From Limibacter armeniacum (GTDB lineage Bacteria; Bacteroidota; Bacteroidia; Cytophagales; Flammeovirgaceae): a stretch of 64,000 nt of DNA. The stretch spans positions 186,001 through 250,000 of the forward strand of contig NZ_JBAJNO010000001.1 of assembly GCF_036880985.1 (NCBI RefSeq), given 5' to 3'. The notes beneath the pieces are model-generated. The model did no database searches. It was not told the DNA's origin and was given only the letters and a program-made list of their open reading frames with translations. Of this stretch, positions 25,521 to 44,730 are shown piece after piece (positions within the stretch are counted from its first letter, which is position 1; each line of letters begins with the position of its first letter). The translations under genes were made by a program, and so were the position numbers.

Positions 25521-25539
25521 AGTAGTAAGTGGGATGAAA

Positions 25540-25674
25540 CAGGGCAATAATTAGAATGGATTTGATTGAACTAATCAACAGGAGTTATCCCATTCTCCAA
25601 TTCGATGGATTTAAATCCATCGCTTCTATATTTTGTCCCTTCGGGACAGAATTTATAGTTTAATTATTGTCCTG
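25540..25674. repeat. 135-bp inverted-repeat hairpin element inside the anhydro-galactose operon
   Basis: The ends CAGGGCAATAATTA (25540-25553) and TAATTATTGTCCTG (25661-25674) are 14-bp inverted repeats with one mismatch. Inside are a perfect 20-bp palindrome, CGATGGATTTAAATCCATCG (25603-25622), and the hairpin GTCCCTTCGGGAC (25635-25647). Both internal hairpins recur in altered form in the element at 38.14-38.34 kb. It fills the space between the aldehyde dehydrogenase and cycloisomerase genes. Confidence 0.75.
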
Positions 25675-27978: not shown

Positions 27979-28998
27979 TTAGTTCTGACAATCAATCAGG
28001 TATTTCATACCTGCCGGATTATTGTCGATCGTTTCAAATACCGACTGAATATTGGAAAGCGTATCGACTTGCGTGATCAGCTGCTCGAATGGAACGGCAC
28101 CTGAAGCGGCAATACTGATGGCTTCCTCATAATCCTCTTCTTCGTAAAGTCTTGCGCCCAGCAGCTCGATCTCTGCCCAGAAAAACTTGAACAGGTCAAC
28201 CGGCTTTTTCTCTCCGCCATGAATAGCTACCATCACGATTCTGCCTCTTACATTGACTACCTCTGTCATGGTTGCTGCGCCCGGCGCCGAGCCGGATACC
28301 TCAAAGGCACAATCGATCATAGCATCGCCAGTCAGTTCAGCAATGCGCTCAAGCAGGTTTTCCTTAACGGGGTTAATCGTACTGAAACCCAACTCATTCA
28401 GCATCGCAAGCCTGTTCTCATTTACTTCAGAGATATAGACATGCGCGCCTTTCTCTCTCAATACATAAGCGATCAGCGTTCCGATTGGTCCACCGCCAAT
28501 CACCAGGCAATGCTCACCTGCTTTCACTCTTCCGATCTTCACGTCGTGGCAAGCCACTGCCAAAGGCTCGATAAAGGCACCGTGCATCAGCGAAAGGTTT
28601 TCAGGCAGCTTGTGCAAAGTATAGGCAGGTACTGTCCAGCTGTTCTGGAATGCACCGGCACTGTCAATACCGATAAACTTCAGGTTTTTACCCACGTGGT
28701 TGAAACCTTTATCATACGGATGAGGCGCTCCGAATTTCAACGGCCTTACGGCTACCTTGTCGCCCACTTTTACGTTGGTCACGCCCGGTCCTACTTCCGC
28801 CACTACTGCCGAAGCCTCGTGCCCAACTGTCTGCGGAGGTTTTACCCTTGTATCCATCACACCGTGGTAGATGTGCACATCCGTACCGCAGACGCCACAG
28901 TAGGCTACTTCCAATCTTACTTCTCCTTCTGCCGGCTTCACTACGTCACATGTGCCGATCTCAAATTTTTGATTTCCTGTATAAAATGCTGCTTTCAT
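27979..28998 (-). CDS. Zinc-dependent medium-chain dehydrogenase, predicted 2-keto-3-deoxy-L-galactonate 5-dehydrogenase
   Basis: This 339-residue MDR enzyme has the catalytic-zinc cysteine in YCGVCGTDVHIY, GHEASAVVAEVGPGV and the Rossmann VIGGGPIGTLIAYVLREKG. The structural-zinc cysteine cluster is missing: the segment reads GAPHPYDKGFNHVG. It resembles threonine/sorbitol-type dehydrogenases. In the described L-anhydro-galactose route, a dehydrogenase oxidises 2-keto-3-deoxy-L-galactonate at C5 and a KduD-type enzyme then reduces the diketo acid to KDG. The adjacent KduD-like gene fits this exactly. The paralogue at 60.3-61.3 kb probably does the corresponding step on L-galactonate. It is 12 bp after GH2 and 32 bp before the KduD start. 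Confidence 0.8.
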   Translation of the reverse strand: MKAAFYTGNQKFEIGTCDVVKPAEGEVRLEVAYCGVCGTDVHIYHGVMDTRVKPPQTVGHEASAVVAEVGPGVTNVKVGDKVAVRPLKFGAPHPYDKGFNHVGKNLKFIGIDSAGAFQNSWTVPAYTLHKLPENLSLMHGAFIEPLAVACHDVKIGRVKAGEHCLVIGGGPIGTLIAYVLREKGAHVYISEVNENRLAMLNELGFSTINPVKENLLERIAELTGDAMIDCAFEVSGSAPGAATMTEVVNVRGRIVMVAIHGGEKKPVDLFKFFWAEIELLGARLYEEEDYEEAISIAASGAVPFEQLITQVDTLSNIQSVFETIDNNPAGMKYLIDCQN

Positions 28999-29010: not shown

Positions 29011-31608
29011 TTAATTTTTTACTGATGCGAATTCAATGTTATCCTGCTTGTTATCCGATTCCTGCAATACGAGTTTCAGCTGGTCCCCTTTCAGTCCGTC
29101 ACTGCTTACCGATACATCTACCTGCCCTTCTTTGCTTCGGATGGATTGCAATACCAGCAAAGCCCTTCCCTGATGGGTTACCAGCTCATTGGTTCTGTGA
29201 AGCTGTACATTTTCCAATGCCCCATTGTCCACGCCCAACAGGCGAACTCCTTCAGGCAGGTTAAAAGTCACTTTTCTTTCTGTATGGCTCACTGGGTTTC
29301 CGGCTGCATCCACAAGCTGTGCTACGACATGTGCTACATCATAGCCGTCAGTCTTAAGGTGTGTACGGTCTGCCACCAATGTCACCCCTACCGGATTGCC
29401 TGCTGTATTCAGGTAAGTCACTTGTGTTTCACCATCCTTGGTGCCGACTGCTTTCAGCTCTCCAGTCTCGAAAGCCACACCCCACTTGTAGATATGGTCC
29501 TCAAACTCATCCAATGTTCTTTTACCCAAGCTTCTGTCGTTGAGGAACAGCTCGATCTCATCGCAGTTAGAGTAGATCTCCACGCTGATCATCTGTCCTT
29601 CAGGGTAATTCCAGTGATTGTTGACCTTATGCCAATTCCAAAGCGCCTGTTTCCATGCATCCGGTTTTTTGGCAACTAATTTCCCTGTGGCAGGATCTAT
29701 TTTGTTGATGGATTTTTCCAATTGCTGTGTAGCGATAAACGTATGTGGCTTATCCGTCCACAGTGTCTTGATCATATGGTAAGAAGGGTTAGGGAAACCC
29801 GCAAAATCAACCATGCCTGAGCCGCTACCCTTTTGTGGCCACGGACCACGGATTTCACCCATATAATGGATACCTGTCCAGAAGAAAGTACCCGCAATAA
29901 ATGGTCTTTCCATAATGGCTTTCCACTCATGGTACTGCGCCAAATTTTCGGTACCCATGATCACCTTGTCTGGGTATAGTTCATGTCCGTAATCATACAG
30001 CACACGACGGTAGCTATAACCCACAATGTCCAGTGATTTGCCGTAGTCAGTCAAGTGGCTTGCTGATGGCAGGATACAGTTGGCGATCACTGGTCTTGTG
30101 GTATCCATTTCCTTGGTCCATTTCACCAGCTTGCTCGCTGTTGTTCCGATATCGTATTTGCCTTTCGGCAAGGTTTCCAATTGCTTTTTGATTTGCTCCG
30201 GCGAGAATGGCGGTTCTGACCAGAAATAGTTGCCGCTCCAGTTCATGTTGTTGAAGAAGCCTGTAGCCGCCTGTGCTCTAGGGTATGTCCACTCAATCTC
30301 ATTACCGATACTCCATTGAAAAATGGAAGGGTGGTTGCGGTGTGCGAGTACTGTATTTTTCAGATCCTGCTCTGCCCATTCCTGAAACTGCAGGGCATAG
30401 CCCTCTGTTACATATTCCTGTTTTCTCTCTTTCTGATTCCAGCGTTTGTCTTTAGGGTTGTCCCACTCATCAAAGAATTCATCCTGCACCAAAAAGCCCA
30501 TTTCATCACAAAGGTCAAGGAACTCCTGAGAACCTGGGTTGTGAGAAATTCTAATCGCGTTACAGCCGCCGTCTTTCAACAGTTGCAGCCTTCTTCTCCA
30601 AACGCCTTTTGGCACTGCCGTTCCAACGAGTCCAGCATCATGGTGAAGACACACGCCCTTGATCTTGCGGTTCTGTCCATTAAGGAAAAACCCTGAATCC
30701 GGATCAAAGCGAATCTCACGAACGCCAAATTTTGTCAGCACTTCCTCCAGTTGCTTTCCTTCATTCAGGATAGTTGTGCGTGCCGTGTACATATAAGGAC
30801 TCTCAATGTCCCAAAGTCTTGGCTTTTTCACGGCTACCTGCACATCAAATGTGTTTTCCGAAGCTGCCGAAAGCTGCTGCTTCTCTTCTGTTTCGGATAC
30901 TACCTGACCTTGTGCGTCCAGTATTTCCGTTTTCAGCGTAAAAGTTTGTCCGGCCTTATATTGATTTGACACCGTAGTGGCTACCTGAACCATTGCCTGC
31001 TCCTCAGAAATTTCAGGGGTTGTTACAAAAGTGCCCCAAACCGGCACATGAAGTTTGTCTGTCACGACCAGTTCCACATTTCGATAGATGCCCGCTCCGG
31101 TATACCAACGGCTGTCCGCATAGCGTGTATGGTCTACTTTTACAGCCAATATGTTTTCTTTTCCATCCTTATTCAGGTAAGGCGTCATGTCAAACTGAAA
31201 CGGCACGTAGCCATAAGGACGTCCGCCAAGTTTCTGTCCGTTCAGGAATACTTCTGAGTGGTTGTATACACCGTCAAAGACGATAAATGCTTTCTGATGA
31301 TCTTCTAAATTGAGGTTAAAATGTTTTCTGTACCAACCGATGCCTCCTCCATAAATATAACCTGTGGCAGGTGCAGTGTTAGCGTTGGCAGTGTCATAAG
31401 GGTGTTCAATGACCCAATCATGTGGCAGATTAAGGCTTTCCCATTGCTGATCATCGAAACTGATTGCAACAGGAGATTGAGCCAAATCCTGTTCCGTCAG
31501 CTTAAATTTCCAGTCAAAATTAAAGTCATTGACTCTCTGCATTGGCTCAGTTTGCTTACTGCAGCTAACGATTAGAAATATTGCAATCAGATAAAAAATT
31601 CTCTTCAT
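29011..31608 (-). CDS. GH2 beta-galactosidase, lipoprotein
   Basis: A lipoprotein signal (IFLIVSC-SK) is followed by the GH2 sandwich domain ([23 protein letters not shown]), an Ig-like domain, and the TIM barrel with [12 protein letters not shown], acid/base E437 (SIGNEIEW) and nucleophile E554 (MGTENLA). C-terminal Ig-like modules (DUF4982-like and Big-type) complete the 865 residues. Family members in agar and porphyran loci remove beta-linked D-galactose from the non-reducing end of agaro-oligosaccharides. It is the first gene of a minus-strand run of at least nine genes down to the GH16 agarase. A CCCCC-type motif lies about 130 bp upstream, so it likely carries the main promoter of the anhydro-galactose operon. 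Confidence 0.9.
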
Positions 31609-32297: not shown

Positions 32298-32464
32298 TTA
32301 AGTTTACAGCTCAAGTCCTTGGAGGAAGACAATCTGATCAGAAGGACGGTTTAGCATAAAAAGCCGCCGTTAAAAGTGGTGTACAATTTGACTGAACTGG
32401 GCAGTAGCTTATTCCGATCGTTCAGTCCATTGCGGATTGGGGAGATTTTGTGGTGGCGAAATAG
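32274..32464 (+). pseudogene. C-terminal remnant of an HxlR-family transcriptional regulator
   Basis: The plus strand encodes LQLKSLEEDNLIRRTV, then a TAG stop at 32352-32354 where the family has tyrosine, then KPPLKVVYNLTELGSSL. After a one-base shift near 32410 it continues as IPIVQSIADWGDFVVAK and stops at 32464. These are the winged-helix wing and C-terminal helix of HxlR/MarR-like regulators. The N-terminal half is missing. There are three independent lesions: truncation, nonsense and frameshift. Confidence 0.75.
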
Positions 32465-32563
32465 ACTTGGTACAGCAAACAACCGCAAAAAACAAGATCG
32501 TTTTTACCTTGAAATATTTTAAACCTCACAAGAGGTATTTTTCAAATCACCTTTTTTCAACTT

Positions 32564-33409
32564 ATGAAAGCTGTTTTAGAAAAAATTCATGTTCCGGAGA
32601 AACAATCCCTGATTGCCTACCATTATGAGAAACCATCTTTTGAGACGCCTTGGCATTTCCATCCGGAACATGAGCTAACCTATATTAAGAAAAGCAGCGG
32701 CATCCGATATGTGGGGAACAGTATGGCTGCTTTTGAAGAGGGTGACTTGGTACTGATTGCCAGTCAGCTTCCTCATTGCTGGAAGAATGATGAACACTAC
32801 CAAAGCACTTCCAAGGCACTTGTCATACAATGGCATACACAACTTTTTCATGATATTCCAGAGCTGCAGGCAATCCATCGGCTACTGAAATTGGCACAAA
32901 GAGGGATCAGCTTTTCTGCTGTCAGTGCCGCCTTGGTGGATAAGATGGAAGAAGTCATAGAGGCTCCTCCTCTCAACAAATACCTGCTGCTGCATGAGAT
33001 TCTTGATGAACTTGCCAACAGAACTGACTACCAGTTATTGGCGGGTGACTCCTATGTGTATGACCATTCTCCTGAAACCTCCAACCGGATCATGAAAGTG
33101 CAGCAATTCGTTCAGCAGCATTACAAGCAGAAAATCATGCTGACGGACATTGCCCATGAATTGCATATGAGTGAGCAGTCTTTCTCAAGGTTCTTTAGCA
33201 AGGTGATGCAGCGCTCATTTTTTATCTACCTGAATGAGTACCGGATCAATATTGCGAGCCGGATGCTACTGGAAACCGATAGGCAAGTGGCTGAAATCGG
33301 ATTTGAATGTGGCTATGAGAGTTTGCCATTCTTTTATAAACAGTTCAAGAAATTCAAGCATTGCTCTCCACTTGTTTTCCGGAAAATGTTTAGCAAAGCA
33401 CAGCATTAA
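32564..33409 (+). CDS. AraC-family transcriptional regulator with cupin sensor domain
   Basis: The 281-residue protein has an N-terminal cupin (HFHPEHELTYIKKSSGIRYVG, then EEGDLVLIASQLPHCW). The C-terminal pair of helix-turn-helix motifs begins at about residue 185 (QQHYKQKIMLTDIAHELHMS, FSRFFSKVMQRSFFIYLNEY, AEIGFECGYESLPFFYKQFK). Such regulators usually sense a sugar or sugar derivative. It lies 185 bp upstream of, and on the same strand as, the ferredoxin reductase/oxygenase operon and is the obvious local regulator. It could be sensing 6-O-methyl-galactose or galactose, an inference from position only. Confidence 0.88.
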   Translation: MKAVLEKIHVPEKQSLIAYHYEKPSFETPWHFHPEHELTYIKKSSGIRYVGNSMAAFEEGDLVLIASQLPHCWKNDEHYQSTSKALVIQWHTQLFHDIPELQAIHRLLKLAQRGISFSAVSAALVDKMEEVIEAPPLNKYLLLHEILDELANRTDYQLLAGDSYVYDHSPETSNRIMKVQQFVQQHYKQKIMLTDIAHELHMSEQSFSRFFSKVMQRSFFIYLNEYRINIASRMLLETDRQVAEIGFECGYESLPFFYKQFKKFKHCSPLVFRKMFSKAQH

Positions 33410-33594
33410 TAGAAATTGAATTTAATCATCTATTCCACTACATTTTTGATCAAAATTATAATACGAAATACAGAATAGATTACTTTTTAGCCAAAATAAA
33501 GGAAGATTACGACCCTTCAGTAGCGCAATTTTGCATGAATACCCAACCAAAATTGGGCAAGATCATCTCGTAACTGAAACACACAACATGCGCT

Positions 33595-34665
33595 ATGGAG
33601 CTGGAAGTCGTAAATATAGAAGCACTGACAGAGGATTGTAAGGCTTTTTATTTTGCTGTGCCTAAAGGGAAAATCCCGTTCAAGGCTGGGCAATTCCTCA
33701 CCTTTGTCCTGAAAATCAACCAAGAAGAAATCAGAAGGTCTTACTCTATCTGCACCGCAGAAGAAACCGATCCTTTTATAGGAGTGGCAGTCAAAAGAGT
33801 AAAAGGAGGGCTAGTCTCCAACTACCTGAATGACCACATCAACATTGGAGACAAGCTAAAAATAGAGGCTCCCGCCGGTCAGTTTGTCTACGAGCCAGAC
33901 AAGGAAGTGACGCCTGAAGTACTGCTTATTGCCGGTGGCAGTGGCATTACCCCTATGCTTTCCATTATCAAAACTGCCCTTTACCAGCACCCGACCAAGC
34001 GGCTGTCCCTTTTATATGTCAACCGTTCTGAAGCTGATATCATCTTCTATAAGGCTCTGAAGCAGTTAGAGCATCAGTTCCCTGACCGCTTGAAAATTGT
34101 GCATTACCTGAATGAAGCGCATAAAGGAAGTGTCATCGTAGAAAAGAAACTCTTTGGACTTTTCAACAGCAAGTCGTTCAACAAAGATGGGTTTATCACC
34201 ACTGCAAAAGCCCAAGAAATCATCACCAGTTTCTCACTTTCCAATCAGACGCCTGTGTACCTGTGTGGTCCAATCGGATTGATGAATATCATGGAGGAAA
34301 GCCTCCAACACATGGGATTTCAGCAGCTCCGTAAAGAACATTTTGTATCCAACCTTACGCCTTCCAATGTCAAAGTCCCCTCCAATGCAATTGGAAAGGC
34401 GACTATAACCGTGCGCCTGAATGGTAAAAAGCAACAGTTTGACGTCTTGAAAGGGCAATCCATTCTTGAAGGGGCTGTCTTATCGGGCATCGACTTGCCG
34501 CATTCCTGCAAGCAGGGCAACTGTACTGCCTGCTACGGAGTCTGTACTTCCGGCGATGTAGCCATGATCACGGACGAAGCACTGACAGATGAAGAGTTGG
34601 CAGAAGGCGGCATCCTTGCCTGTGTTGGTTACCCAACCACCAAAAAAGTAAGTATCAAACTATAA
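33595..34665 (+). CDS. FAD/[2Fe-2S] ferredoxin-NAD(P)H reductase (MocF/PaaE-like)
   Basis: The 356-residue electron-transfer protein has three parts. An FAD-binding barrel carries RRSYSIC at residues 47-53. An NAD(P)-binding domain has AGGSGITPM near residue 113 and VYLCGPIGLMN. A C-terminal plant-type ferredoxin domain has the cluster cysteines SCKQGNCTACYGVC plus a later LACVG cysteine. It would pass electrons from NAD(P)H to the Rieske domain of the next gene's product, 13 bp downstream. The order reductase, then oxygenase-Rieske, corresponds to MocF with MocD/MocE of the rhizopine demethylase. Phenylacetyl-CoA epoxidase reductase has the same architecture, but its partner subunits are absent here. 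Confidence 0.88.
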   Translation: MELEVVNIEALTEDCKAFYFAVPKGKIPFKAGQFLTFVLKINQEEIRRSYSICTAEETDPFIGVAVKRVKGGLVSNYLNDHINIGDKLKIEAPAGQFVYEPDKEVTPEVLLIAGGSGITPMLSIIKTALYQHPTKRLSLLYVNRSEADIIFYKALKQLEHQFPDRLKIVHYLNEAHKGSVIVEKKLFGLFNSKSFNKDGFITTAKAQEIITSFSLSNQTPVYLCGPIGLMNIMEESLQHMGFQQLRKEHFVSNLTPSNVKVPSNAIGKATITVRLNGKKQQFDVLKGQSILEGAVLSGIDLPHSCKQGNCTACYGVCTSGDVAMITDEALTDEELAEGGILACVGYPTTKKVSIKL

Positions 34666-34678
34666 AACGATTATCAAG

Positions 34679-36115
34679 ATGGTAAACCCTCAAGACTATA
34701 TACAGGAAGCCCCGTGGGCAAAAGTTGACATGCCTCGAAACGAATTCAGGCAGTTTATGCAGAAAAACAACCTTTATGGTATCCTCAATACCTTGTTGTG
34801 GATCATCTCCCTATTCGGGACGGGGTATTTGGCTTATTTATCTTTAGACTCCTATTGGGTGATTCCTGCCTTTTTCCTTTATGGCGTGATGTACTGTGCC
34901 TGTGATGCCCGTTGGCATGAAAGCTCCCACGGCACTGTTTTCAAAACTCCTTGGATGAACACCGCACTTTGTTTTATTGCTACCGCAATGCAACAAAGAG
35001 ATATTATTTTTACAAACTGGTCCCATGTCAGGCATCATTCCTATACCATAATCAATGATATCGATCCTGAAATTACGGTCACCAGACCACCTACTTTTTG
35101 GGAACATTTCCTTAACTTTTTCAGTTTGGGCGAGTCCAAGTACTATATTCCTGTTTTGGTCAAACATGCTTTCGGAATCGTCAGCGAGGATGCCCGAAAA
35201 TTTGTCCCTGAAGAAGAATATAACCGTATGTTCTGGTGGGCAAGAGCCAGCCTGCTGCTGAATCTTATCCCCATCATCGTGGCTGGTTTAACACAATCAT
35301 GGCTTCCTTTGCTGTTTGTCGGACCGCTTCCGAAGATGTACGGCAATATTATCCAGCGTTCGTTTGTGCTTGCCCAACACGCAGGACTTGATGAGGACGT
35401 GTGGGATCACCGCAAAAACTCAAGAACCATTCTGGTTAACCCATTTTTCGGTTTTCTATTTATGAATATGCAATACCATGTGGAGCATCATATGTATCCA
35501 CTGATGCCATTCCACCAGTTGCCTCGCTTTCATAGACGGGTACAGGACCAAATGCCGAAGCCATACAAAGGCATGATCGAGGTTTACCGCGAAATGATTC
35601 CTGCCCTGATCAAGCAAAGTAAAGACACCACTTATTTTATTGACCGTAAGGTACCGGGTGCAGAAGAACCCCAAAAGGTTGTCCGCATCAAGGAGATGGA
35701 AGCTTCAAGTGCCATGATCCCTATGGCTGCCAAAGGAGCGGAAACCGTTATGGCCAATCAGACAACTTCTGCTGTGCCTGAAGAATTGGAGTGGCATGCT
35801 GTGACTTCGGTAAAAGACCTTGCGTCCAATGATGTCATCAATGTCAAAATTGAAGGAACTGATTATGCCATTGTCCATACGGATAAGGGCGAATATTATA
35901 GCGTCAGCGGCATCTGTACCCATGAACATGCCTATATGGCTGATGGTGTAGTGGAAAGCTGTACCATTTCATGTCCGAAACACAACTCCAAATTTGATTT
36001 GAAGACCGGCAACGCACTGAACAGACCTGCTAAAAAAGCCTTGAAAACCTATCCGGTAAAAGTGGAAGATGGACAGGTTCTGATAGGATTGGCAGCCGAA
36101 ACGATTAAGTCATAA
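34679..36115 (+). CDS. Membrane di-iron oxygenase (MocD-like) fused to a Rieske ferredoxin (MocE-like); predicted sugar O-demethylase
   Basis: Residues 1-320 form a fatty-acid-desaturase-type membrane domain with hydrophobic pairs at about 35-75 and 190-225. Three histidine boxes are present: H80-ESS-H84, H116-VR-HH120 and H267-VE-HH271. The HAGLDEDVWDHRKNSRT stretch resembles the rhizopine-oxygenase (MocD) subgroup. After a ~50-residue linker, residues 365-470 form a Rieske domain with C413-x-H415 and C432-x2-H435. MocD and MocE are separate proteins in rhizobia; here they are one chain. With the reductase upstream it should be a complete monooxygenase. An alcohol dehydrogenase and an esterase follow. 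In an agar locus, 6-O-methyl-D-galactose is the likely substrate; a lipid desaturase role is the main alternative. Confidence 0.85.
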   Translation: MVNPQDYIQEAPWAKVDMPRNEFRQFMQKNNLYGILNTLLWIISLFGTGYLAYLSLDSYWVIPAFFLYGVMYCACDARWHESSHGTVFKTPWMNTALCFIATAMQQRDIIFTNWSHVRHHSYTIINDIDPEITVTRPPTFWEHFLNFFSLGESKYYIPVLVKHAFGIVSEDARKFVPEEEYNRMFWWARASLLLNLIPIIVAGLTQSWLPLLFVGPLPKMYGNIIQRSFVLAQHAGLDEDVWDHRKNSRTILVNPFFGFLFMNMQYHVEHHMYPLMPFHQLPRFHRRVQDQMPKPYKGMIEVYREMIPALIKQSKDTTYFIDRKVPGAEEPQKVVRIKEMEASSAMIPMAAKGAETVMANQTTSAVPEELEWHAVTSVKDLASNDVINVKIEGTDYAIVHTDKGEYYSVSGICTHEHAYMADGVVESCTISCPKHNSKFDLKTGNALNRPAKKALKTYPVKVEDGQVLIGLAAETIKS

Positions 36116-36139
36116 AAACTAACAGCAAGAAGAATTAAG

Positions 36140-37258
36140 ATGAGCATACAAGCAAAAGCCGCCATTGCAGATGGAAAAGGAGGGTTCGTCATCGACATCA
36201 TAGAAGTAGGTGACCCAATGCCCGATGAAATTTTGGTCAAGGTAAAAGCTACAGGGCTTTGCCATACTGACCATGATTCCCTCTCATGGGGGAAACCCAT
36301 TGTTTTAGGACATGAAGGAGCTGGCGTTGTCGAAAAAGTAGGAAAGGAAGTCCGTGATTTCAAAATCGGTGACAAAGTGATCCTGAATTGGGCAACTCCT
36401 TGTCTGCAATGTTTCCAATGTCAGGAAGGGAATCAGCATATCTGTGAACAAAATTCTCCTGTCACCGCCGGTGGTAATGGCTATACACCCGGACACGCCC
36501 ACTTGGAAGGTACCAAATGGAAAGGTGAAACAATCGAACGGTCTTTTAATCTCGGCACCCTCTCAGAATATACCCTTGTCAAAGCATCTGCCTGTATCAA
36601 ACTGGAAAGTGAAATGCCGTTCAGCTCTGCCAGCGTGATCAGTTGCGGTGTGATGACCGGCTATGGGTCTGTGGTCAATTCAGCTAAGCTTCAGGCAGGC
36701 AGCTCTGCAGTTGTACTCGGCACGGGTGGCGTCGGTTTGAATGTGATTCAAGGCGCCCGAATTGCCGGTGCTGCCATGATCATCGCCGTTGACATTAACC
36801 CTGATCGATTGGAAATGGCTACCCGATTTGGCGCCACCCATACCCTCTTGGCAGATCCGAATGACAAGGGATTGCTTAATACAGCTCGTGAGGTAAAAGA
36901 AATGACCAATGGCAGAGGGGCTGACTATGCTTTTGAGTGTACTGCCATTCCTGCGTTGGGAGCGGCTCCACTCGCCATGATCAGAAATGCGGGAACTGCG
37001 GTACAGGTAAGTGGGATTGAAGAAGAAATCACCATTGACATGCGCCTTTTTGAATGGGATAAAATCTATATCAACCCATTGTATGGAAAATGCAGACCAC
37101 AGATTGACTTTCCCAAACTTGTATCACTGTATAATAAGGGTACACTGATGCTCGATGAAATGATCACCAATACCTATCCTCTGGAAGAACTTCAATTGGC
37201 ATTGGAAGATATGCTGGCAGGAAAAAATGCAAAAGGCGTAATTTTATTGGAAGCATGA
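36140..37258 (+). CDS. Zinc-dependent class III-like alcohol dehydrogenase, predicted formaldehyde detoxification
   Basis: This 372-residue MDR enzyme resembles S-(hydroxymethyl)thiol/class III alcohol dehydrogenases. The catalytic-zinc residues are in GLCHTDHDSLSW and LGHEGAGVVEKVG. The structural-zinc cluster is CLQCFQCQEGNQHIC, and the Rossmann motif is GTGGVGLNVIQGARIAGA. Class III enzymes oxidise the thiol adduct of formaldehyde. Oxidative O-demethylation by the preceding oxygenase would release formaldehyde, and dehydrogenases next to the P450 demethylase in other marine Bacteroidota have been linked to formaldehyde removal. The stop overlaps the esterase start by 4 bp (ATGA). Direct oxidation of another alcohol cannot be excluded. 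Confidence 0.8.
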   Translation: MSIQAKAAIADGKGGFVIDIIEVGDPMPDEILVKVKATGLCHTDHDSLSWGKPIVLGHEGAGVVEKVGKEVRDFKIGDKVILNWATPCLQCFQCQEGNQHICEQNSPVTAGGNGYTPGHAHLEGTKWKGETIERSFNLGTLSEYTLVKASACIKLESEMPFSSASVISCGVMTGYGSVVNSAKLQAGSSAVVLGTGGVGLNVIQGARIAGAAMIIAVDINPDRLEMATRFGATHTLLADPNDKGLLNTAREVKEMTNGRGADYAFECTAIPALGAAPLAMIRNAGTAVQVSGIEEEITIDMRLFEWDKIYINPLYGKCRPQIDFPKLVSLYNKGTLMLDEMITNTYPLEELQLALEDMLAGKNAKGVILLEA

Positions 37259-38061
37259 GCAATTCATCATTCAGAACAACAGAACGCTCCATGCCGAAGT
37301 TTGAAAGGGAAAACCTTCGGTTTATCACTGTTAAGTCCAGACATTTGCAAGGGCGTGGAGATATTTGCGTATTTGTACCCCAAGATGTAAAGGAAGAAAA
37401 CTTGCCTATCGCAATCCTGCTGCATGGAGTTTATGGAAGTGCATGGGTCTGGTCTTTCTTGGGAGGCGCACACCTGACTGCCCAACAAATGATAGAGGAA
37501 GGACGCATCCGACCGATGGTACTTGCTATGCCTTCTGACGGACTTTGGGGTGACGGATCTGGATACCTGAAGCACCACAGCGGACAGGACTTTGAAAAAT
37601 GGATCGTGGAAGATGTCGTACAAGCGGTCAGAGAGAATATTTCTTGTACCTCTTCCTCTTCGCCCCTTTTTATTGGAGGGCTTTCCATGGGAGGATTTGG
37701 TGCACTGAAATTAGGTTCCAAATACGGGCATTTGTTCAAAGGCATTTCTGCCCATAGCGCTATCACGGAAGTTGAACAAATGCAGCTGTTTGTAGAAGAG
37801 CCACTGGAAAATTACCGTCAACACGAGCGGTCTGACGAAGATGTCTTGACCAGCATACGCCAAAGTCCTCAATTGCCTGCGCTCCGATTTGATTGCGGCA
37901 CGTCAGATGAACTGATTGACTTTAACAGGCACTTGCATAAGCAACTGATCGATCACAATATCGAACACCAATACGAGGAATTTGATGGCGGGCATCAATG
38001 GGAATATTGGCAGCTACACCTTCAGGATTCACTCTGCTTTTTTGATCGCCTGCTGCCTTAA
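37255..38061 (+). CDS. Esterase D-like alpha/beta hydrolase, possible S-formylthiol hydrolase
   Basis: The 268-residue protein is an esterase-D/S-formylglutathione-hydrolase-like alpha/beta hydrolase. It shows LPIAILLHGVYGSAWVW (oxyanion region), the nucleophile elbow GLSMGGFGALKLG and a C-terminal GGHQWEYW with the catalytic histidine. No signal peptide is seen, so it is cytoplasmic. It is translationally coupled to the dehydrogenase. That pairing parallels the two-step thiol-dependent formaldehyde pathway ending in formate. A carbohydrate esterase role is possible but less fitting for a cytoplasmic protein. It is the last gene of the operon, 32 bp before a strong terminator. Confidence 0.75.
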   Translation: MSNSSFRTTERSMPKFERENLRFITVKSRHLQGRGDICVFVPQDVKEENLPIAILLHGVYGSAWVWSFLGGAHLTAQQMIEEGRIRPMVLAMPSDGLWGDGSGYLKHHSGQDFEKWIVEDVVQAVRENISCTSSSSPLFIGGLSMGGFGALKLGSKYGHLFKGISAHSAITEVEQMQLFVEEPLENYRQHERSDEDVLTSIRQSPQLPALRFDCGTSDELIDFNRHLHKQLIDHNIEHQYEEFDGGHQWEYWQLHLQDSLCFFDRLLP

Positions 38062-38092
38062 AGCTTTGTCAACGATATTATTCATTCAAAAT

Positions 38093-38126
38093 AAAAGGGG
38101 TAAGCTTGTTTAAGCTTACCCCTTTT
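38093..38126. terminator. Strong bidirectional terminator
   Basis: A perfect 15-bp stem, AAAAGGGGTAAGCTT (38093-38107) and AAGCTTACCCCTTTT (38112-38126), has a 4-nt loop. It ends the oxygenase operon and could also stop the opposing sulfatase transcript. Confidence 0.9.
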
Positions 38127-38460
38127 ATATATCCGCTAATTAACGTGAATGATGGTTTATAATGCCCTTAAATCGATGCCATTGCATGGCACGATGAAAT
38201 GCTGACATATTTAGTCCCTTCGGGAGACATGCCCTGAAAGGGCTATATACAACAGCGATGGGATTTATTCCATCGTCTGAAAGCAAGTGTTTACAGGCAT
38301 GCAAGGGCTAAATAGTGCGTTTCTAATTCATAACTCACGTTAAATAGAAGTTAAACTTGTTTTATCGACTTCGGCTACGCTCAGCCACCAATACTAGGTT
38401 CCTGAGCGTAGTCGAAGGAGATTTCTTTAGTATCCAATTCAAGGATCTATAATATAAAGT
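38124..38460 (+). repeat. Dispersed hairpin repeat, family A, copy 2, interrupted
   Basis: The left end TTTTATATATCCGCTAATT (38123-38141) matches the start of copy 3 (TTTTATAGATCCGCTAATT). The remainder resumes at about 38344 with GAAGTTAAAC, GTTTTATCGACTTCGGCT, CCTGAGCGTAGTCGAAGG, AGATTTCTTTA and an AAGGATCTATAATATAAA end. The arms CTTCGGCTACGCTCAG and CTGAGCGTAGTCGAAG pair with one mismatch. The 204-bp element at 38140-38343 splits it. Confidence 0.75.
38140..38343. repeat. 204-bp hairpin element with terminal inverted repeats, nested in family A copy 2
   Basis: The ends TTAACGTGA (38140-38148) and TCACGTTAA (38335-38343) are perfect 9-bp inverted repeats that could include a TTAA or TAA duplication. 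Internal hairpins are TGCCATTGCATGGCA (38177-38191), GTCCCTTCGGGA (38214-38225), GCCCTGAAAGGGC (38231-38243) and CGATGGGATTTATTCCATCG (38256-38275). Two of these recur in the element at 25.5 kb. No open frame of note; it looks like a non-autonomous, MITE-like element. Confidence 0.65.
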
Positions 38461-38462
38461 AA

Positions 38463-39878
38463 TCAATTATCCAGTACGGGTGTTCTTTTCTCATCCATCC
38501 GTTTCATCGCGTTGACCTCATAAACGCGCTTCAGCTGCCAAAGCGGTCTTTCCAGTGTTCCTTCCCACTCAAAAAGCAGCTTATACATTTCCCTTACTTT
38601 GTCAGGGTACTCATATGCCAAATTATTGGACTCCGAAATATCCTCCGCTATATTATACAGTTCGGCAGGTCTGTCCGGAAAACGGAGCATTTTCCAGTCT
38701 CCCTGACGTACCACTCCCCTGTTTTCCTTCTTCCAAAACAATACTTCATGAGGCACCGAGTTGTTTTCACCTGTCAGATATGGAATAAGGTCGACACCGT
38801 CCAATCCTTGGATTTCAGCCGCATTTCCTCCAGCTGCATTGACAAAAGTTGGCAACATATCCAACATGCTAACAGGTTGCTGATACACTGTTCCTGCCTT
38901 GATCACTTTTGGCAATTTGACAATACACGGTACCCTGATTCCCCCTTCCAAATGGTTGGACTTGCAGCCACTCAAAGGATAGTTGCAGGTTAAGGTACCG
39001 TCGGGACCACCATTGTCGTTGGCAAAAACCACCAAGGTGTTTTCATCCAATCCTAGTTCCTTCAGCTTACCCAGAATCTGTCCACAAGCCCTGTCCATCG
39101 CAATGGTCATGGCTGCCAACATTTTCCGTTTGCCTGTCAGCCCCTTCACTTTTTCCAAATCTTCTTTTGTCGCGTGCAGTGGTGCATGTACAGCATTGAA
39201 AGAGACATACATAAAGAATGGCTTGTTCTTGTTTCTGTCCATAAAGTCACAGGCCTCGTCAGCTAGGGCATCGGTCAGGTACTTATCAGGCTCCTGAAAA
39301 TTGCCGAATCCTCTTTCCATCCTATCTGCTGGTCTGTCAAATGCTTCCTTCTGCGAAAGTGGGAAAAAGCTTCTGGCTCCTCCTCTGAACCCATAAAATT
39401 CATCAAAACCTCTACCCAATGGGTGATACTTATCGGCATTGCCCATATGCCATTTCCCTAAAATGATAGATTGGTAACCCAGTGGTTCCAAATAGTCTGC
39501 AATGGTTTTCAGGTGAACAGGCAATCCCATTTCATCGCCTATCTTATTAGAAGAAGTACTCATATAGCCCGGCACATTGTTCTCCTCAAAACCAAACCTT
39601 TGCTGATACATTCCCGTCAGCAAACCAGCCCGTGAAGGACCGCATACCGCTGCGGTGGTATAGGCTTCCCGCATGATCATTCCCTCAGAAGCCAGCTTAT
39701 CGAGGTGCGGGGTAGGAAAGGTCTTGCTTCCCTGAAAACCGAAATCATGGTAACCAGCATCGTCCGCAAAAAGAAGTATAATGTTGGTCTTTTTCTGTGC
39801 CAAAAGTTGTCCTGTGCAAAGCATATTGAGCAGGACCGTCAAGAAGAAAATAGGTCTAATTAAAAAATTATGTTTCAT
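38463..39878 (-). CDS. Family S1 sulfatase, secreted
   Basis: The ATG at 39878 was chosen because it begins a signal peptide (MKHNFLIRPIFFLTVLLNML, cleavage near LLA-Q). The longer upstream frame only overlaps the BNR gene. The 471-residue protein has the metal-binding ILLFADDAGYHD start and the sulfatase signature CGPSRAG, with C79 converted to formylglycine. GKWHMG and FANDNGGPDG are further active-site elements. Family S1 enzymes remove ester sulfate; candidate sites are the 6-sulfate of L-galactose in porphyran or sulfate on agar galactose. The maturation enzyme is not in the window. It lies 34 bp after the BNR gene, in the same transcript. Confidence 0.88.
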   Translation of the reverse strand: MKHNFLIRPIFFLTVLLNMLCTGQLLAQKKTNIILLFADDAGYHDFGFQGSKTFPTPHLDKLASEGMIMREAYTTAAVCGPSRAGLLTGMYQQRFGFEENNVPGYMSTSSNKIGDEMGLPVHLKTIADYLEPLGYQSIILGKWHMGNADKYHPLGRGFDEFYGFRGGARSFFPLSQKEAFDRPADRMERGFGNFQEPDKYLTDALADEACDFMDRNKNKPFFMYVSFNAVHAPLHATKEDLEKVKGLTGKRKMLAAMTIAMDRACGQILGKLKELGLDENTLVVFANDNGGPDGTLTCNYPLSGCKSNHLEGGIRVPCIVKLPKVIKAGTVYQQPVSMLDMLPTFVNAAGGNAAEIQGLDGVDLIPYLTGENNSVPHEVLFWKKENRGVVRQGDWKMLRFPDRPAELYNIAEDISESNNLAYEYPDKVREMYKLLFEWEGTLERPLWQLKRVYEVNAMKRMDEKRTPVLDN

Positions 39879-39912
39879 GCCAAATGTGTGTTTTAATGCA
39901 ATCAATAATATC

Positions 39913-42474
39913 TTACTGCTCCGCCCATCCGTCTGATGTTCCTTTGAAATACCCGACTGTCCAGCCACTTCCTTTTTGTGCCATCCAGAATACATCTTCA
40001 CGGTAAGGATCAGGCTTGAAGTCCGTAATCCTATCTTGCTGACCCAAATTCTTATTGACCTTGTGCCAAGTTTTGCCGCCATCCATTGACAGGTAAGCCC
40101 CTGCATTCAACTTAGCTTCAGGTGATTTGGCTCTGATTGGCAATGCTGCACTAACCGTGATAATTTTCGGATTGATTGGAGAGGTTTCCACTTGCCAGAT
40201 ATAAGGCATGTCAAAGATTTTCTCCCATGACTTGCCATTATTGCGGCTTCTCCAAACACCTCCACCTTGGTCGGTTGCCTGCTCATTGCCGCATGCGATC
40301 AGGATATCCTTTGTGTTGCGGTCGATAAACACATTGTTGACAAAGTCGATTTCTGAAGGAATCTTGACTTCCTCCCAATGACTTCCTTTATCCTTGGTCA
40401 CAAACAATCCACCATTCTTGTCATTGACCGCTGCATACAGCATTTCAGAATGGTCAGGATGCATGGCAATCCTACGGATACTCGCATTCTTATGCAGCCC
40501 ATTGTTGCTTAACTCCCAAGTGTAACCGCCATCCATTGAACGATAGAAACCATAGTCACCTTTAGTGTGTTTTTGTGCATTTGGACCTGCTACTTCTGAG
40601 ATCATTTTACGGGTAGCACAGAAATACATATTGTCAGGATTGACAGGATCAATCAGCAGGGAGTTTTGTGCCGCCAGTCCCATCCACGGGCTATTTGCTG
40701 CCTCAAAGATGGTGGCGATATTTTCCCATGTTTTACCTCCGTCAGTGGATCTTCTCAGTTTACCTCTGTGCTCTTGTCTCCAAGACAGAAAATAGATGAT
40801 ATCAGGATTTTTGGGATGTACTGCCACAGTAGAAATCGAATGCGCTCCACCATGATTGTTCTGTCCTTCCAGTTGTTTTACTGCTACTGCTTTCTTGTCA
40901 GGATAGTTGCCAAGCGGAGCCGTTTGCCATAGTCCATGCTCTCCACTGCTTAGCAGATAACGGTCCTTGATACCCGTTTCCAGCAACATAAACCTGCCAG
41001 GAAGGTTACTGCCTCCACGACCTACCCAATGGTTGCTTCCTTTCTCTGTCTCGTTGTCATCGATCTGTTCCCAGCTTTTGCCATGATTGTCTGATGCCAT
41101 CACCTGCTGATCCAAGCAGATGTACACACGACCGTCTGCACCAATTTCAAGAAAACGGTTGCCCCACATTTCCTCTGTCACATTGATTTCCGGTTGTAGG
41201 TGAGCAAAAGTGGTATTGGCGCCTATTGGGTTATTTCTGGATTGCCAGTATGCATTGTCTTTTCCTTCGATCCAATATTTACCTGCTCTTGCCGCAGCAA
41301 TCCAAGTCTTGCCACCATCTGCCGTTTTCCATGCGCCACCCGGCAGGAAGGCTTTATCATGCTTGTTGTTTTGAGAAAGGTAAACCTCGTCCTTATTATT
41401 TGGATTTACCTGAATGCGATGAAAAATAGAGAATACCTCGTTTGGCAACTCAGGGTATTTAGCTTGAATGGTTTTTACATCTTCCTGAAACCAAAAAGCC
41501 AATGACTTCCAGTACTTGTCTTTCAATACTCGGCTACTGATCTGATTGAAATCCACCGCCAGATTACCCGTCATGCTTTGCCAGCTTTTGCCGTGGTCTG
41601 TACTTTTGAAAACCCCTCCTTTTACCTTGACCGTTTTGCCATCGCTTTCAAAAGCTGTTTGCTCCACCATATAAAGGATAAACTCCTTTGTGTTTTTATC
41701 GAAATAATAGTCCAGATCACGGGGGCGGTTGACAGGAAGTCCATCACTGCTAGGCTTCCATGACTTGCCACGGTTGGTGCTTCTGAAAACGCCTTGGTTG
41801 GTAATCGCCACTACCACTTTCCCATCGGTAGGGTCTACCACAATGCGCCCTATGTCCAAATCAGTATAATTACCTATGGTCAATTTTTCCCAGGTTCTTC
41901 CACCATCCATACTTCTGTAGATACCATCATTTTCCACATTGCTGGTCTGTCCGTTTTGGTGGCGGTGATTCTTCTTCACATTCCAAAAATCACCGGGAGC
42001 TGCAAACCAAACCTTATCGTCAGATGGATCTACGGCAAGCTCTGCAAACTTGCCTTTGAATTTTTTGATCTCTTTCCAACTTCTACCTGTGTCAATGGTA
42101 CTGTACAGCTTTCCGTTACCGCATATTGCCATTCCAAATGACGGGTGCTGATACGAAAAAGTGAACTTCCGTACCCTAGCCAAATCAAGCCCGTCCCCGT
42201 TGACATCCTTGACGGTATGCCATGTTTTGCCAGCATCCCATGAGCCATAAGTGTTGTACATATCCGGAGACATCATGATAACATTCTTGTCTGTCGGGTG
42301 GCACCAAAACTCTTCACAGTAACCTGCCATGCCTGGACCTACTTGTCTCCAGTCAATCAAGTCTGTTGTTGCAACCTGCTCAGCTTGCAGTTTGGTGAAA
42401 TATTCTTTATTCAGCTGTGCATTTGTCTCCACACAGAAAAGCAGTGACAATGCCAAAAAAGCAAATTTCTTCAT
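39913..42474 (-). CDS. BNR/Asp-box beta-propeller protein, secreted
   Basis: The start at 42474 gives a signal peptide (MKKFAFLALSLLFCVETNA). The ~850-residue protein contains many Asp-box repeats of the S-x-D-x-G-x-[ST]-W type (STIDTGRSW, RSMDGGRTW, RSTNRGKSW, KSTDHGKSW, KTADGGKTW, RSRNNGKSW, LSMDGGKTW). This implies two stacked propellers, as in VPS10/sortilin- or GH74-like proteins. Sialidase catalytic residues were not recognised. No activity is assigned. Upstream of, and co-transcribed with, a sulfatase, it may be an unrecognised glycan lyase, hydrolase or binding protein for agar/porphyran. Its upstream region contains a family A repeat and a CCCCC-type motif. Confidence 0.75.
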   Translation of the reverse strand: MKKFAFLALSLLFCVETNAQLNKEYFTKLQAEQVATTDLIDWRQVGPGMAGYCEEFWCHPTDKNVIMMSPDMYNTYGSWDAGKTWHTVKDVNGDGLDLARVRKFTFSYQHPSFGMAICGNGKLYSTIDTGRSWKEIKKFKGKFAELAVDPSDDKVWFAAPGDFWNVKKNHRHQNGQTSNVENDGIYRSMDGGRTWEKLTIGNYTDLDIGRIVVDPTDGKVVVAITNQGVFRSTNRGKSWKPSSDGLPVNRPRDLDYYFDKNTKEFILYMVEQTAFESDGKTVKVKGGVFKSTDHGKSWQSMTGNLAVDFNQISSRVLKDKYWKSLAFWFQEDVKTIQAKYPELPNEVFSIFHRIQVNPNNKDEVYLSQNNKHDKAFLPGGAWKTADGGKTWIAAARAGKYWIEGKDNAYWQSRNNPIGANTTFAHLQPEINVTEEMWGNRFLEIGADGRVYICLDQQVMASDNHGKSWEQIDDNETEKGSNHWVGRGGSNLPGRFMLLETGIKDRYLLSSGEHGLWQTAPLGNYPDKKAVAVKQLEGQNNHGGAHSISTVAVHPKNPDIIYFLSWRQEHRGKLRRSTDGGKTWENIATIFEAANSPWMGLAAQNSLLIDPVNPDNMYFCATRKMISEVAGPNAQKHTKGDYGFYRSMDGGYTWELSNNGLHKNASIRRIAMHPDHSEMLYAAVNDKNGGLFVTKDKGSHWEEVKIPSEIDFVNNVFIDRNTKDILIACGNEQATDQGGGVWRSRNNGKSWEKIFDMPYIWQVETSPINPKIITVSAALPIRAKSPEAKLNAGAYLSMDGGKTWHKVNKNLGQQDRITDFKPDPYREDVFWMAQKGSGWTVGYFKGTSDGWAEQ

Positions 42475-42516
42475 GGTGTTTATCTCTATCAAAAAGTGTT
42501 GTCCGTTCAATGTTTC

Positions 42517-42647
42517 CTCATTTTATAGATCCGCTAATTGGAAGTTAAATCCGTTTTATCGGCTTCGACTTCGCTCAGCCACCAATACTAGCTTCCTAAA
42601 CGTAGCCGAAGGAGATTTCTTTAGTCTTTAAGGATTTATAAAATGAG
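42517..42647 (+). repeat. Dispersed hairpin repeat, family A, copy 3
   Basis: This intact 131-bp copy has 16-bp terminal inverted repeats, CTCATTTTATAGATCC (42517-42532) and GGATTTATAAAATGAG (42632-42647), with one mismatch. The interior carries CGGCTTCGACTTCGCTCAG and CTAAACGTAGCCGAAGG arms. It lies between the BNR start and the CCCCC-type motif and so separates the motif from its gene by about 130 bp. Confidence 0.8.
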
Positions 42648-42674
42648 TCATTGCAAATGTAGGTTTAAAGAAGA

Positions 42675-42695
42675 AAACAGGGGGGAAAGGATTAT
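42675..42695 (-). promoter_or_regulatory. CCCCC-type upstream motif, BNR/sulfatase operon site
   Basis: Minus-strand reading TAATCCTTTCCCCCCTGTTT. It is the weakest of the same-orientation matches. It lies about 205 bp before the BNR start, or about 75 bp if the intervening repeat is discounted. Confidence 0.4.
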
Positions 42696-42737
42696 GGCGA
42701 ATAGGTGGCGTAAATTCTTATCAGGCGTAAATAAAAA

Positions 42738-42776
42738 AATACATACCACTTACTGATAGTTTCAGTGGTATGTATT
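42738..42776 (-). terminator. Terminator of the 611-residue sulfatase gene
   Basis: A perfect 13-bp stem, AATACATACCACT (42738-42750) with AGTGGTATGTATT (42764-42776), is followed on the minus strand by a T run. It lies 13 bp past the sulfatase stop. Confidence 0.85.
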
Positions 42777-42789
42777 AAGGAAAACGTCC

Positions 42790-44625
42790 CTATTTGTTTA
42801 GCCTTAGTTTATAATCGTGTGCACCTTCTGCAAAGTTGCTTCGGAAGATTTCAGTACCGTCAGCCTTCTTGCCCCACTCCACTTCTACACGACCATCGCC
42901 CAGTACAATATTCATCAGTTTCTCTTTCATTGCCATGGCGATATGCTCATACTTTTTATTGAAAGCCAAGTTATTCACCTCCCCCGGATCCTTGGATGTG
43001 TAATACAAGCCCGGATCCAGTTCCTCGTAAGAAGCATGCAATGCCCACTCCATATTTTGCCCTCTTTTCCTGTCCGGACGTGTTTGCATGGAGAACATAA
43101 AATCCTTGGTTCTGATATAGGCACGAGGTCCTGTTACCGCATGGCTTTCCCCCACTACATAATCCCTTACAGGTACTTCTTTAGCGGCAACCTTTGCCAT
43201 GTCAAACCCATCCAGGTAATCAAATTTCTGATCATTCAGTTTGGCTCCTGCAGCTGACAGAATCGTAGGCGCTATATCCACAAACTCTGTAAAATCCTTT
43301 ACCACCTTTCCTGCCGGAAATGCTTTCTTGTCTGAAGACACCACAATGATCGGGTTGTGGTTGTCAATATCCCAAGGAGTGAATTTAGATACTGCACCAT
43401 GATCATTCAGTTTCCAGCCATGATCACCACATACATAGACAATCATCCACTCTTGCTTGTTCTTCTCGCTGTATTCGATAAAGGCATCTACCGTCTGACC
43501 AATCAGCTGATCGCCATAAGCACAGAAAGCGAAATAGTCCTGTACCATTGCCTGTTTCTCAGCATCTGTAAAATTGTCGGATTCCGATACCAATACTGCC
43601 TTTTTAAGTTGAGCTGGCATCTTGTTTAACTCCTTTCTATCAAACTCAGGCACTTTGTAAGTATGCTTTCTGAAACGCGCTCTGAAATCTGCGGGAGGAA
43701 GCACTGGCGTATGAGGAAAATCAAAACCAATGTGACAGAAAAGTGGCTTAGACCTGTCAATTCCATCAAATGTACGGCTGCCAATGGTAATTTGCTTTTC
43801 CTCGTTATTTACATAATCTGTAAAGATAGAAGCATAGTAACCGTCCCTTGTCTTGCCTGCAGGCTGAGCGCTTACACCTGACAAGATTCCTGTGTTGAAC
43901 GGAGATTGTGGTCCCTTCTTCTTGTTATAATGCGCCAACAAATCATATTTTTCATAAATACTTTTTGCCGAACCTGCATACTCAGGTTTCAGTTGTTCCA
44001 ATTCTTTGGACTTGTACTCAAACTTACCGTCAGGCGTCACAAAGAATTCCACGTTTTTTAATGGCTTGTCCAGTTTTTCACCATCAAATTCATGGAACCA
44101 GTCCTTGCCCCAGTCTGTCAAGCCATCCAATCTTAATTGCTTGAAATCAATATCCGTTTGGTAAATGTCGTAAGGCTTGGCTTTTCCATTCTCCACGGTC
44201 TTGATTCTCATACCAAGCTTACCAATATGCAAAGTCTGGTATCCCAAGTCCGCCATATGTTCAGGCAAGGTAGGCTGGCTGTGTTCCGCATTGTTGTTGT
44301 AGTACTCAAACTCATACACACCCGAGCGGAAAGGATAACGTCCCATATGCATGGAAGTACGGGAAGGTGCACAACCTGCTGCCTGACAATAGGTATTGAT
44401 AAAAGTGGTCCCCATGCTCGCAAGTCTGTCCACGTTAGGAGATTCCACGTAACCAAGCGCACTTGAGTCCCGACCATGTAGCATCTTGTTGAAAGCACCA
44501 ATTGTATCATAGCGTTGATCATCTGTCAGGAGCCAAAGCACATTCGGCTGCTGTTGGGCTATCCCTTTATGGCAAAGCATCAGGAACGAAGCCATGATCA
44601 ATGACAGTATCGAAAGTTTTTTCAT
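42790..44625 (-). CDS. Family S1 sulfatase (iduronate-sulfatase-like), secreted
   Basis: A signal peptide ([23 protein letters not shown]) precedes the metal-binding [12 protein letters not shown]. The signature is GCAPSRT, with C85 as the formylglycine precursor. Other core elements are [34 protein letters not shown] and [13 protein letters not shown]. At 611 residues it is longer than the other sulfatase and belongs to a different S1 subfamily, so the pair probably attacks different sulfate positions. The start lies 105 bp after the surface glycan-binding gene, beyond a terminator. It may be read through from the SusCD operon or have its own promoter. Confidence 0.88.
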
Positions 44626-44676
44626 CTGATTTTTATTAAAGTGTACCCCTCCAACCCCTGATTATTGAATTAAAAA

Positions 44677-44708
44677 AATCGGCTATACCCTTATGGATAT
44701 AGCCGATT
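44677..44708 (-). terminator. Terminator of the SusCD operon
   Basis: AATCGGCTATA (44677-44687) pairs perfectly with TATAGCCGATT (44698-44708), with a T run on the minus strand. It lies 22 bp past the stop of the glycan-binding lipoprotein gene. Confidence 0.85.
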
Positions 44709-44730
44709 GAAATTTATAATGGAATAGCCA

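Follow-up and report, generated by a model that had tools for sequence, protein, structure and literature searches.

We analysed a 64,000-nt stretch of the genome of Limibacter armeniacum (assembly GCF_036880985.1, contig NZ_JBAJNO010000001.1; hereafter the window, whose positions serve as coordinates), which contains an operon for a putative di-iron/Rieske oxygenase. A reading made from the letters alone (the sequence-only reading) had described four tightly spaced genes preceded by an AraC regulator, and all five open reading frames (ORFs) were found at the claimed positions on the plus strand, with their domains confirmed by Pfam:

32564-33409, plus strand: AraC-family regulator (Pfam HTH_18, 76 bits; Cupin_2), which resembles the AraC proteins beside Bacteroidota P450 demethylase operons
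33595-34665, plus strand: NAD(P)H reductase of the FNR type with a C-terminal plant-type 2Fe-2S domain (FAD_binding_6, NAD_binding_1, and Fer2)
34679-36115, plus strand: 478-residue fusion of a MocD-like di-iron oxygenase and a Rieske ferredoxin domain (assigned by Pfam, alignment, and tree)
34856-35581, plus strand: FA_desaturase domain of the fusion (residues 60-301; 113 bits), with three histidine boxes and an NSRT stretch
35789-36085, plus strand: Rieske [2Fe-2S] domain of the fusion (residues 371-469; PF00355/PF13806, 69 bits for the Rieske match at residues 371-459)
36140-37258, plus strand: zinc alcohol dehydrogenase (ADH; ADH_N and ADH_zinc_N), a FoADH/ZoADH orthologue by its Protein Data Bank (PDB) matches
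37255-38061, plus strand: esterase-D-like hydrolase (PF00756, 70.5 bits), the counterpart of the esterase that accompanies this ADH elsewhere

The ADH and esterase ORFs overlap by 4 bases. The histidine boxes of the fusion, HESSH (residues 80-84), HVRHH (residues 116-120), and HVEHH (residues 267-271), and the NSRT stretch (residues 247-250) were both present as claimed. The box histidines, NSRT, and the Rieske residues C413, H415, C432, and H435 are invariant across five aligned fusions (the window protein and the four relatives described below). The reductase is PaaE/GbcB-like and falls under the NCBIfam cut-offs of both families (PaaE, 226 bits with a cut-off of 421; GbcB, 147 bits with a cut-off of 500). 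An AlphaFold2 model of the fusion built from five sequences had a mean predicted local distance difference test score of 44 and a predicted template modelling score of 0.32, and a PDB search with the di-iron part alone returned nothing meaningful. Scanning positions 32300-38600 for promoters and terminators gave no excess over shuffled sequences.

The decisive clue, overlooked in the sequence-only reading, is the ADH. Its top PDB matches were 8h2a (682 bits) and 8h2b (641 bits), and the next match reached only 201 bits. These two entries are FoADH and ZoADH, whose genes, according to Brott 2023 (PMC10033563), adjoin the P450, the redox partners, and the esterase of the 6-O-methyl-D-galactose demethylation locus. 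The same paper reports that (i) a Zobellia ADH knockout grew poorly on 6-O-methyl-galactose and normally on galactose; (ii) FoADH and ZoADH were inactive on formaldehyde, either alone or with glutathione, mycothiol, or bacillithiol; and (iii) their active site is narrow, with a hydrophobic surface (PMC10033563). Judged by these matches, the window ADH is an orthologue of FoADH/ZoADH and not the class III-like dehydrogenase that had been supposed; it scored 223 bits against TIGR02818, far below the cut-off of 544. The esterase likewise missed the S-formylglutathione hydrolase cut-off (TIGR02821, 31 bits with a cut-off of 282), and shares 59-62% identity with its counterparts in P450 loci L067 and L071. 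The further proposal that the two enzymes remove formaldehyde was set aside, because the published assays of the orthologues were negative (PMC10033563). Since the ADH is orthologous to FoADH/ZoADH, the operon resembles the 6-O-methyl-galactose locus with its oxygenase changed. We therefore propose that its products probably form an O-demethylase of three components, which takes the place of the P450 system when 6-O-methyl-D-galactose is catabolised.

The absence of a P450 from the window had been correctly noted: a Pfam scan of 38 window proteins found none. The L. armeniacum genome encodes two PF00067 proteins elsewhere (L001 and L002; ~280 bits), both of which are Rieske-P450 fusions of ~595 residues; searched whole, it has no relative of the ADH-locus P450 at E <= 1e-60. 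A P450 6-O-methyl-D-galactose demethylase was reportedly described from Formosa and Zobellia by Reisky in 2018. The window shares with that locus an orthologous ADH, a matching esterase and AraC, agar flanks, and the expected reaction. By contrast, that locus carries a P450, a ferredoxin, and a Pyr_redox reductase, where the window has the non-homologous fusion and an FNR-Fer2 reductase.

We surveyed ADH loci at E <= 1e-100 and found the gene in 11 of 395 genomes of the window's class (its own included) and in 35 of 349 genomes of family f56, 44 distinct genomes in all. Apart from the window itself and L030, whose ADH is cut by a contig end and which was left out of the ADH tree and the locus counts (its genome was kept in the whole-genome counts), 42 Bacteroidota ADH regions were usable. 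Twenty-four of them contain a P450 (one also a PhyH protein), 8 more contain PhyH, and 10 contain neither. The P450 set is usually P450-ferredoxin-ferredoxin reductase, and its order relative to the ADH and esterase varies; in L026 and L027 the full order is AraC-P450-ferredoxin-ferredoxin reductase-ADH-esterase. The L026 P450 matched PDB 6g5o at 625 bits (next match, 155 bits), an entry titled only 'Cytochrome P450' in the database, which we take to be the Zobellia P450. An esterase at least 40% identical to that of the window is encoded no more than 3.5 kb from the ADH in 40/42 Bacteroidota and 8/8 gammaproteobacterial loci, and an AraC regulator at least 34% identical to that of the window lies within 9 kb in 30/42 and 0/8, respectively. 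Aligned along its whole length, the window AraC shares 35% identity with that of P450 locus L027.

Whole-genome oxygenase searches covered 48 genomes, namely the 44 ascertained through the ADH and four that carry relatives of the fusion; the genomes of L110-L117 lay outside the P450 search. At thresholds of E <= 1e-60 for the P450 and E <= 1e-30 for PhyH of the L078 type, 27/48 matched the P450, 19/48 the PhyH, and 5/48 the fusion, and genome G396 has in addition one MocD domain of 39% identity. Among the 44 ADH-ascertained genomes, the P450 was found in 27, PhyH in 19 (7 with both), the fusion in 1 (L. armeniacum itself), and none of the three in 4 (G242, G351, G366, and G387). None of the five fusion genomes matched the P450 or the L078-type PhyH, compared with 39 of the 43 other ADH-bearing genomes that matched one or both (p 7e-5). 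Three genomes of the taxonomic order to which the window belongs, G242, G351, and G387 (loci L028, L031, and L029), have an ADH-esterase pair without a match to the three oxygenases at these thresholds, and possibly use another oxygenase; L029 holds a distant PhyH protein.

Four relatives of the fusion, 64-71% identical, were found in a Bacteroidales metagenome-assembled genome (MAG), a Colwellia MAG, Pseudocolwellia agarivorans, and Marinomonas flavescens (loci L007-L010), the last three being gammaproteobacteria. They came from a contig scan with the oxygenase only, using exact peptide seeds, by which distant fusions may be missed. Across phyla the catalytic domain is 73-77% and the Rieske part 45-61% identical to that of the window. 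The fusion is rare: it occurs in 1/194 genomes of the window's order and 1/295 genomes of the order of L009, in each case the genome of the locus itself. A reductase gene (40-51% identical to that of the window) precedes the oxygenase in all four loci, and all four genomes contain the ADH at 57-77% identity. The ADH is thus present in 5/5 fusion genomes versus 18/688 others (window's class and order of L009; E <= 1e-100, 1e-80; Fisher p 2.6e-8). L007, a 9.6-kb contig, has reductase-fusion-ADH-esterase in the same order as the window. In L009, the esterase and ADH are 3-4 kb off, the reductase gene is directly preceded by genes for two agarase-type proteins, and an MR_MLE gene lies downstream. 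In L010, the ADH is adjacent and divergent. After the reductase-fusion pair of this Marinomonas locus, we observed a sodium:solute symporter gene (L010:11527-13113), a candidate methyl-sugar importer.

P450-ferredoxin-ferredoxin reductase sets are also found in 5 of 8 further gammaproteobacterial ADH loci (L110, L112, and L114-L116). L009 and L110 have in common agarase-type proteins (47-64% identity), the ADH (69%), the esterase (55%), AraC (47%), IclR (48%), and a 250-residue PhyH protein (76%), and differ in the oxygenase set, which is reductase-fusion in L009 versus P450-ferredoxin-ferredoxin reductase in L110. In an ADH tree of 55 rows built by a quick method, the ADHs of the window and L007 group with flavobacterial-type ADHs of P450 loci, and the gammaproteobacterial ADHs form their own clade. 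A single clade for the five fusion-genome ADHs was rejected by the approximately unbiased (AU) test (p 0.0016), and the two Bacteroidota fusion-genome ADHs may be sisters (p 0.63). The fusion oxygenases form one clade (see below) and their ADHs belong to two lineages, each shared with P450-type ADHs; therefore, oxygenases have been exchanged, and these trees need at least two placements of the fusion oxygenase beside different ADH lineages.

The likeness to MocD had been read from the histidine boxes and NSRT. Kinship was borne out by an oxygenase tree of 33 rows (the half-gene PF00487 matches L141 and L143 were left out; a long-branch warning applied among the outgroup rows), which groups the five fusions in a clade of their own (100/100). 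The 11 MocD rows are the sister group, and the node that unites the two has support of 100/98, so that the di-iron domain of the fusion lies beside the MocD clade and is not nested within it. Thirteen further PF00487 proteins, taken from these and related genomes, lie at a great distance from the fusions and MocD, and one D+E pair (L148) falls outside the fusion/MocD clade. NSRT failed as a marker: it is no MocD signature, because only 6 of the 11 MocD rows have it and one outgroup row has it too. Over their whole lengths, rhizobial MocD and MocE can be aligned with the fusion at 38-39% identity. Of the supposed matches to MocE and MocF, the one to MocF was not supported. The Rieske part is homologous along the length of MocE, although it is under the cut-off of the MocE family TIGR02377 (98 bits; cut-off 136). 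The reductase, with FAD_binding_6, NAD_binding_1, and Fer2, is from another family than the reductase beside mocDE, which has Pyr_redox_2 and Reductase_C in L107 (the one scanned) and is annotated 'FAD-dependent oxidoreductase' in six others.

MocDEF is the rhizopine demethylase of rhizobia. Its participation in rhizopine catabolism is stated in PMC10107442. We compared the window with nine annotated loci that have both D and E (L107, L109, L120, L121, L122, and L145-L148). The fusion shares with them the homology to MocD and MocE and the boxes HE..HG, H.RHH, and H[VI]EHH. By contrast, D and E are fused in the window protein, and the window has the ADH-esterase pair and an algal-galactan context, where the mocDEF loci have a PanB-like hydroxymethyltransferase gene (7/9, not L121 or L148) or PurU (3/9). 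Sugar, sugar-transport, or inositol genes lie near 6/9 D+E loci (L109, L121, L122, and L145-L147) and are unclear in L107, L120, and L148; in our own reading, the annotations at L145 and L146 resemble the rhizopine gene set. No mocR, mocBA, or mocC was recognised among the window proteins scanned. On these alignments and trees, the window protein is best described as related to MocD and not as a member of MocDEF. Matches in two phage records cover the Rieske part only, and a phage origin was set aside. A 779-residue MocD-Rieske-FNR triple fusion (L119:8632-10968) was observed in G396, which also bears the ADH-locus P450; its gene adjoins genes for a creatininase, an aldo/keto reductase, and a RhaT-like transporter.

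The flanks of the operon contain the following genes, which were assigned by Pfam unless another source is given:

19833-20963, minus strand: agarase-type glycoside hydrolase family 16 (GH16) protein (Pfam; PDB 3wz1, agarase, 264 bits)
21011-22255, minus strand: GH117 protein (Pfam; PDB 3p2n, 3,6-anhydro-alpha-L-galactosidase, 672 bits)
22291-23292, minus strand: RhaT-like protein
23339-24403, minus strand: aldose epimerase
24396-25547, minus strand: MR_MLE enzyme, a probable anhydrogalactonate cycloisomerase
25691-27142, minus strand: aldehyde dehydrogenase
27979-28998, minus strand: ADH
29011-31608, minus strand: GH2 protein (Pfam; PDB 5t9a, glycoside hydrolase, 967 bits)
38463-40106 and 42790-44625, minus strand: sulfatases
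within the sulfatase-SusCD block 38463-51323: a Vps10/BNR-repeat protein and a hypothetical protein
46434-48191, minus strand: SusD
48204-51323, minus strand: SusC
52068-53609, plus strand: GH29 protein (PDB 7snk, alpha-L-fucosidase as deposited, 463 bits; 7ljj, exo-alpha-L-galactosidase, 456 bits)
55311-63156, minus strand: tagaturonate reductase, altronate dehydratase-like protein, mutarotase, major facilitator superfamily transporter, ADH, aldo/keto reductase, and amidohydrolase

The GH16, GH117, GH2, and GH29 genes bear out the agar setting that had been claimed for the window. The tagaturonate reductase exceeded its family cut-off (PRK03643, 618 bits; cut-off 359), and the genes at 55311-63156 probably constitute an L-galactose pathway. 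Together, the flanks fit agar or porphyran, and the left side includes candidate anhydrogalactose genes. The D-galactose of agar and porphyran is partly 6-O-methylated (PMC10033563; for agarose also PMC8360166), and 6-O-methyl-galactose can account for up to 28% of the porphyran chain (PMC10033563).

PhyH-type 2-oxoglutarate dioxygenases have the same ADH-esterase pair alongside. They belong to another Pfam family (PF05721; 10 of 10 proteins chosen by look from ADH loci were PhyH), and none of the fusion genomes has a match to the L078 type at E <= 1e-30. Such proteins share the locus with the ADH and esterase in L025, L071, L078, L079, L080, L085, L090, L094, and L097, and several of these loci also carry L-galactose/uronate genes. 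PhyH is a probable third class of sugar O-demethylase, given this neighbourhood and the O-demethylation of 2'-O-methyl nucleosides by some PhyH relatives reported in PMC12709175. In L077 (3575-7225), a corrinoid methyltransferase-like set (B12-binding, URO-D family, CobW, and MetH-activation) stands directly before ADH-esterase-P450 and is a possible B12-dependent demethylation route.

On the strength of the protein families, the proposed demethylase would pass electrons from NAD(P)H to FAD and the 2Fe-2S cluster of the reductase, then to the fused Rieske domain and the di-iron site, which would be held by the three histidine boxes. The methyl carbon would be hydroxylated by O2 to an O-hydroxymethyl hemiacetal, which would collapse to D-galactose and a C1 unit, and the ADH and esterase, common to the P450 loci, would perform a helper step. 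The role in sugar O-demethylation, as first suggested, gains from the FoADH/ZoADH-type ADH in the window and in the genomes of all four relatives. Its companion claim, that the system replaces the P450, agrees with the P450-locus comparison, the genome searches, and the ADH tree with its AU test.

Several observations weigh against this proposal. (i) Only five fusions are known here, four of them found via the fusion itself, so that the tests are small and the genomes are not independent. (ii) Two of the five fusion genomes are MAGs (L007 and L008), in which the P450 absence may be a gap, and in the Colwellia MAG (L008) the fusion and the ADH are on different contigs. (iii) For the 4 of 44 ADH-ascertained genomes named above, no match to any of the three oxygenases was obtained, and two fusion genomes encode other PhyH-domain proteins, which fell short of the E <= 1e-30 threshold, close to the ADH (L009:19712-20470 and L118:6569-7408). 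(iv) A single clade for the three gammaproteobacterial fusion-genome ADHs was not rejected (p 0.076). (v) Because the ADH also accompanies PhyH, it marks sugar demethylation and not 6-O-methyl-galactose alone. (vi) Within the fetched stretches and at the thresholds used, agar/L-galactose markers were found at only 22/50 other ADH loci. Agar or L-galactose genes are present at 2/5 fusion loci; the expected agar-locus association held for the window and L009, but no agar gene was recognised in the available stretches of L007 (the 9.6-kb contig), L008, and L010.

An unlikely alternative is that the same machinery, with the same ADH-esterase helpers, acts on a different O-methylated sugar found in red-algal galactans, for example a methylated L-galactose or 2-O-methyl-anhydro-L-galactose. 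The pair is not bound to one substrate, as its presence with PhyH indicates, and genes for the use of anhydro-L-galactose, and probably of L-galactose, flank the operon in the window. However, L009 and L110 share all the genes listed above except the oxygenase set, and the fusion genomes lack a match to the ADH-locus P450. We give very little credence to the idea that the operon encodes a MocD-type enzyme which demethylates a free cyclitol or a small methyl ether (rhizopine or pinitol-like) and lies in an agar locus by chance. Although the sister MocD proteins lie beside inositol, sugar-transport, or other sugar genes at 6/9 D+E loci and 3/5 fusion loci have no recognised agar gene in the available stretch, none of the 38 window proteins scanned belongs to Gfo/Idh or an inositol family, 5/5 fusion genomes contain the ADH known from the methyl-galactose locus, and agarase-type proteins lie directly upstream in L009. 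An acyl-lipid desaturase or alkane hydroxylase with no sugar link is scarcely credible: the FA_desaturase score (113 bits) and a DesB NCBIfam match (53.5 bits; cut-off 500) speak for it, but the fusion fell with MocD (100/98) and far from the 13 other PF00487 proteins, a placement that had been suggested as a check and leaves the demethylase proposal unrefuted, and the Rieske fusion and operon partners also disagree with it.

The reaction and the MocD family are already known; a MocD-type enzyme in place of the P450 would be new. The P450 is the sole 6-O-methyl-galactose demethylating enzyme named in the available parts of the literature covered. No MocD-type or PhyH enzyme for methyl-galactose appeared in the open-licence titles and abstract openings among the matches listed, which is not proof, and PMC10033563 does not contain the words Rieske, desaturase, MocD, or phytanoyl. 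A second, unrelated oxygenase beside the same helpers in two phyla would make the helpers, not the oxygenase, the constant of the pathway. The ADH requirement would become testable, the MocD-type enzyme would gain a predicted, obtainable substrate, and more marker genes would be available for recognising the use of methyl sugars in marine genomes.

More tentatively, and with considerable doubt, we suggest that the ADH and esterase form a transferable exit module that serves the oxidative O-demethylation of sugars and can be combined with any of three unrelated oxygenases (P450, MocD-type di-iron, and PhyH). Oxidation of the O-hydroxymethyl sugar by the ADH would give an O-formyl ester, from which the esterase would release the sugar and formate. 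The pair would mirror an S-hydroxymethyl-thiol dehydrogenase and S-formyl-thiol hydrolase. Free formaldehyde would thereby be avoided. If true, this would explain the failed formaldehyde and thiol assays despite the knockout phenotype, and the presence of the pair in two phyla. The narrow active site and hydrophobic surface of FoADH/ZoADH, as described in PMC10033563, count against it.

At the left of the window (12332-19613) is a PSD1-DUF1501-NHL-PSCyt1/LRR cassette, parts of which recur in 7/42 Bacteroidota and 2/8 gammaproteobacterial ADH loci.

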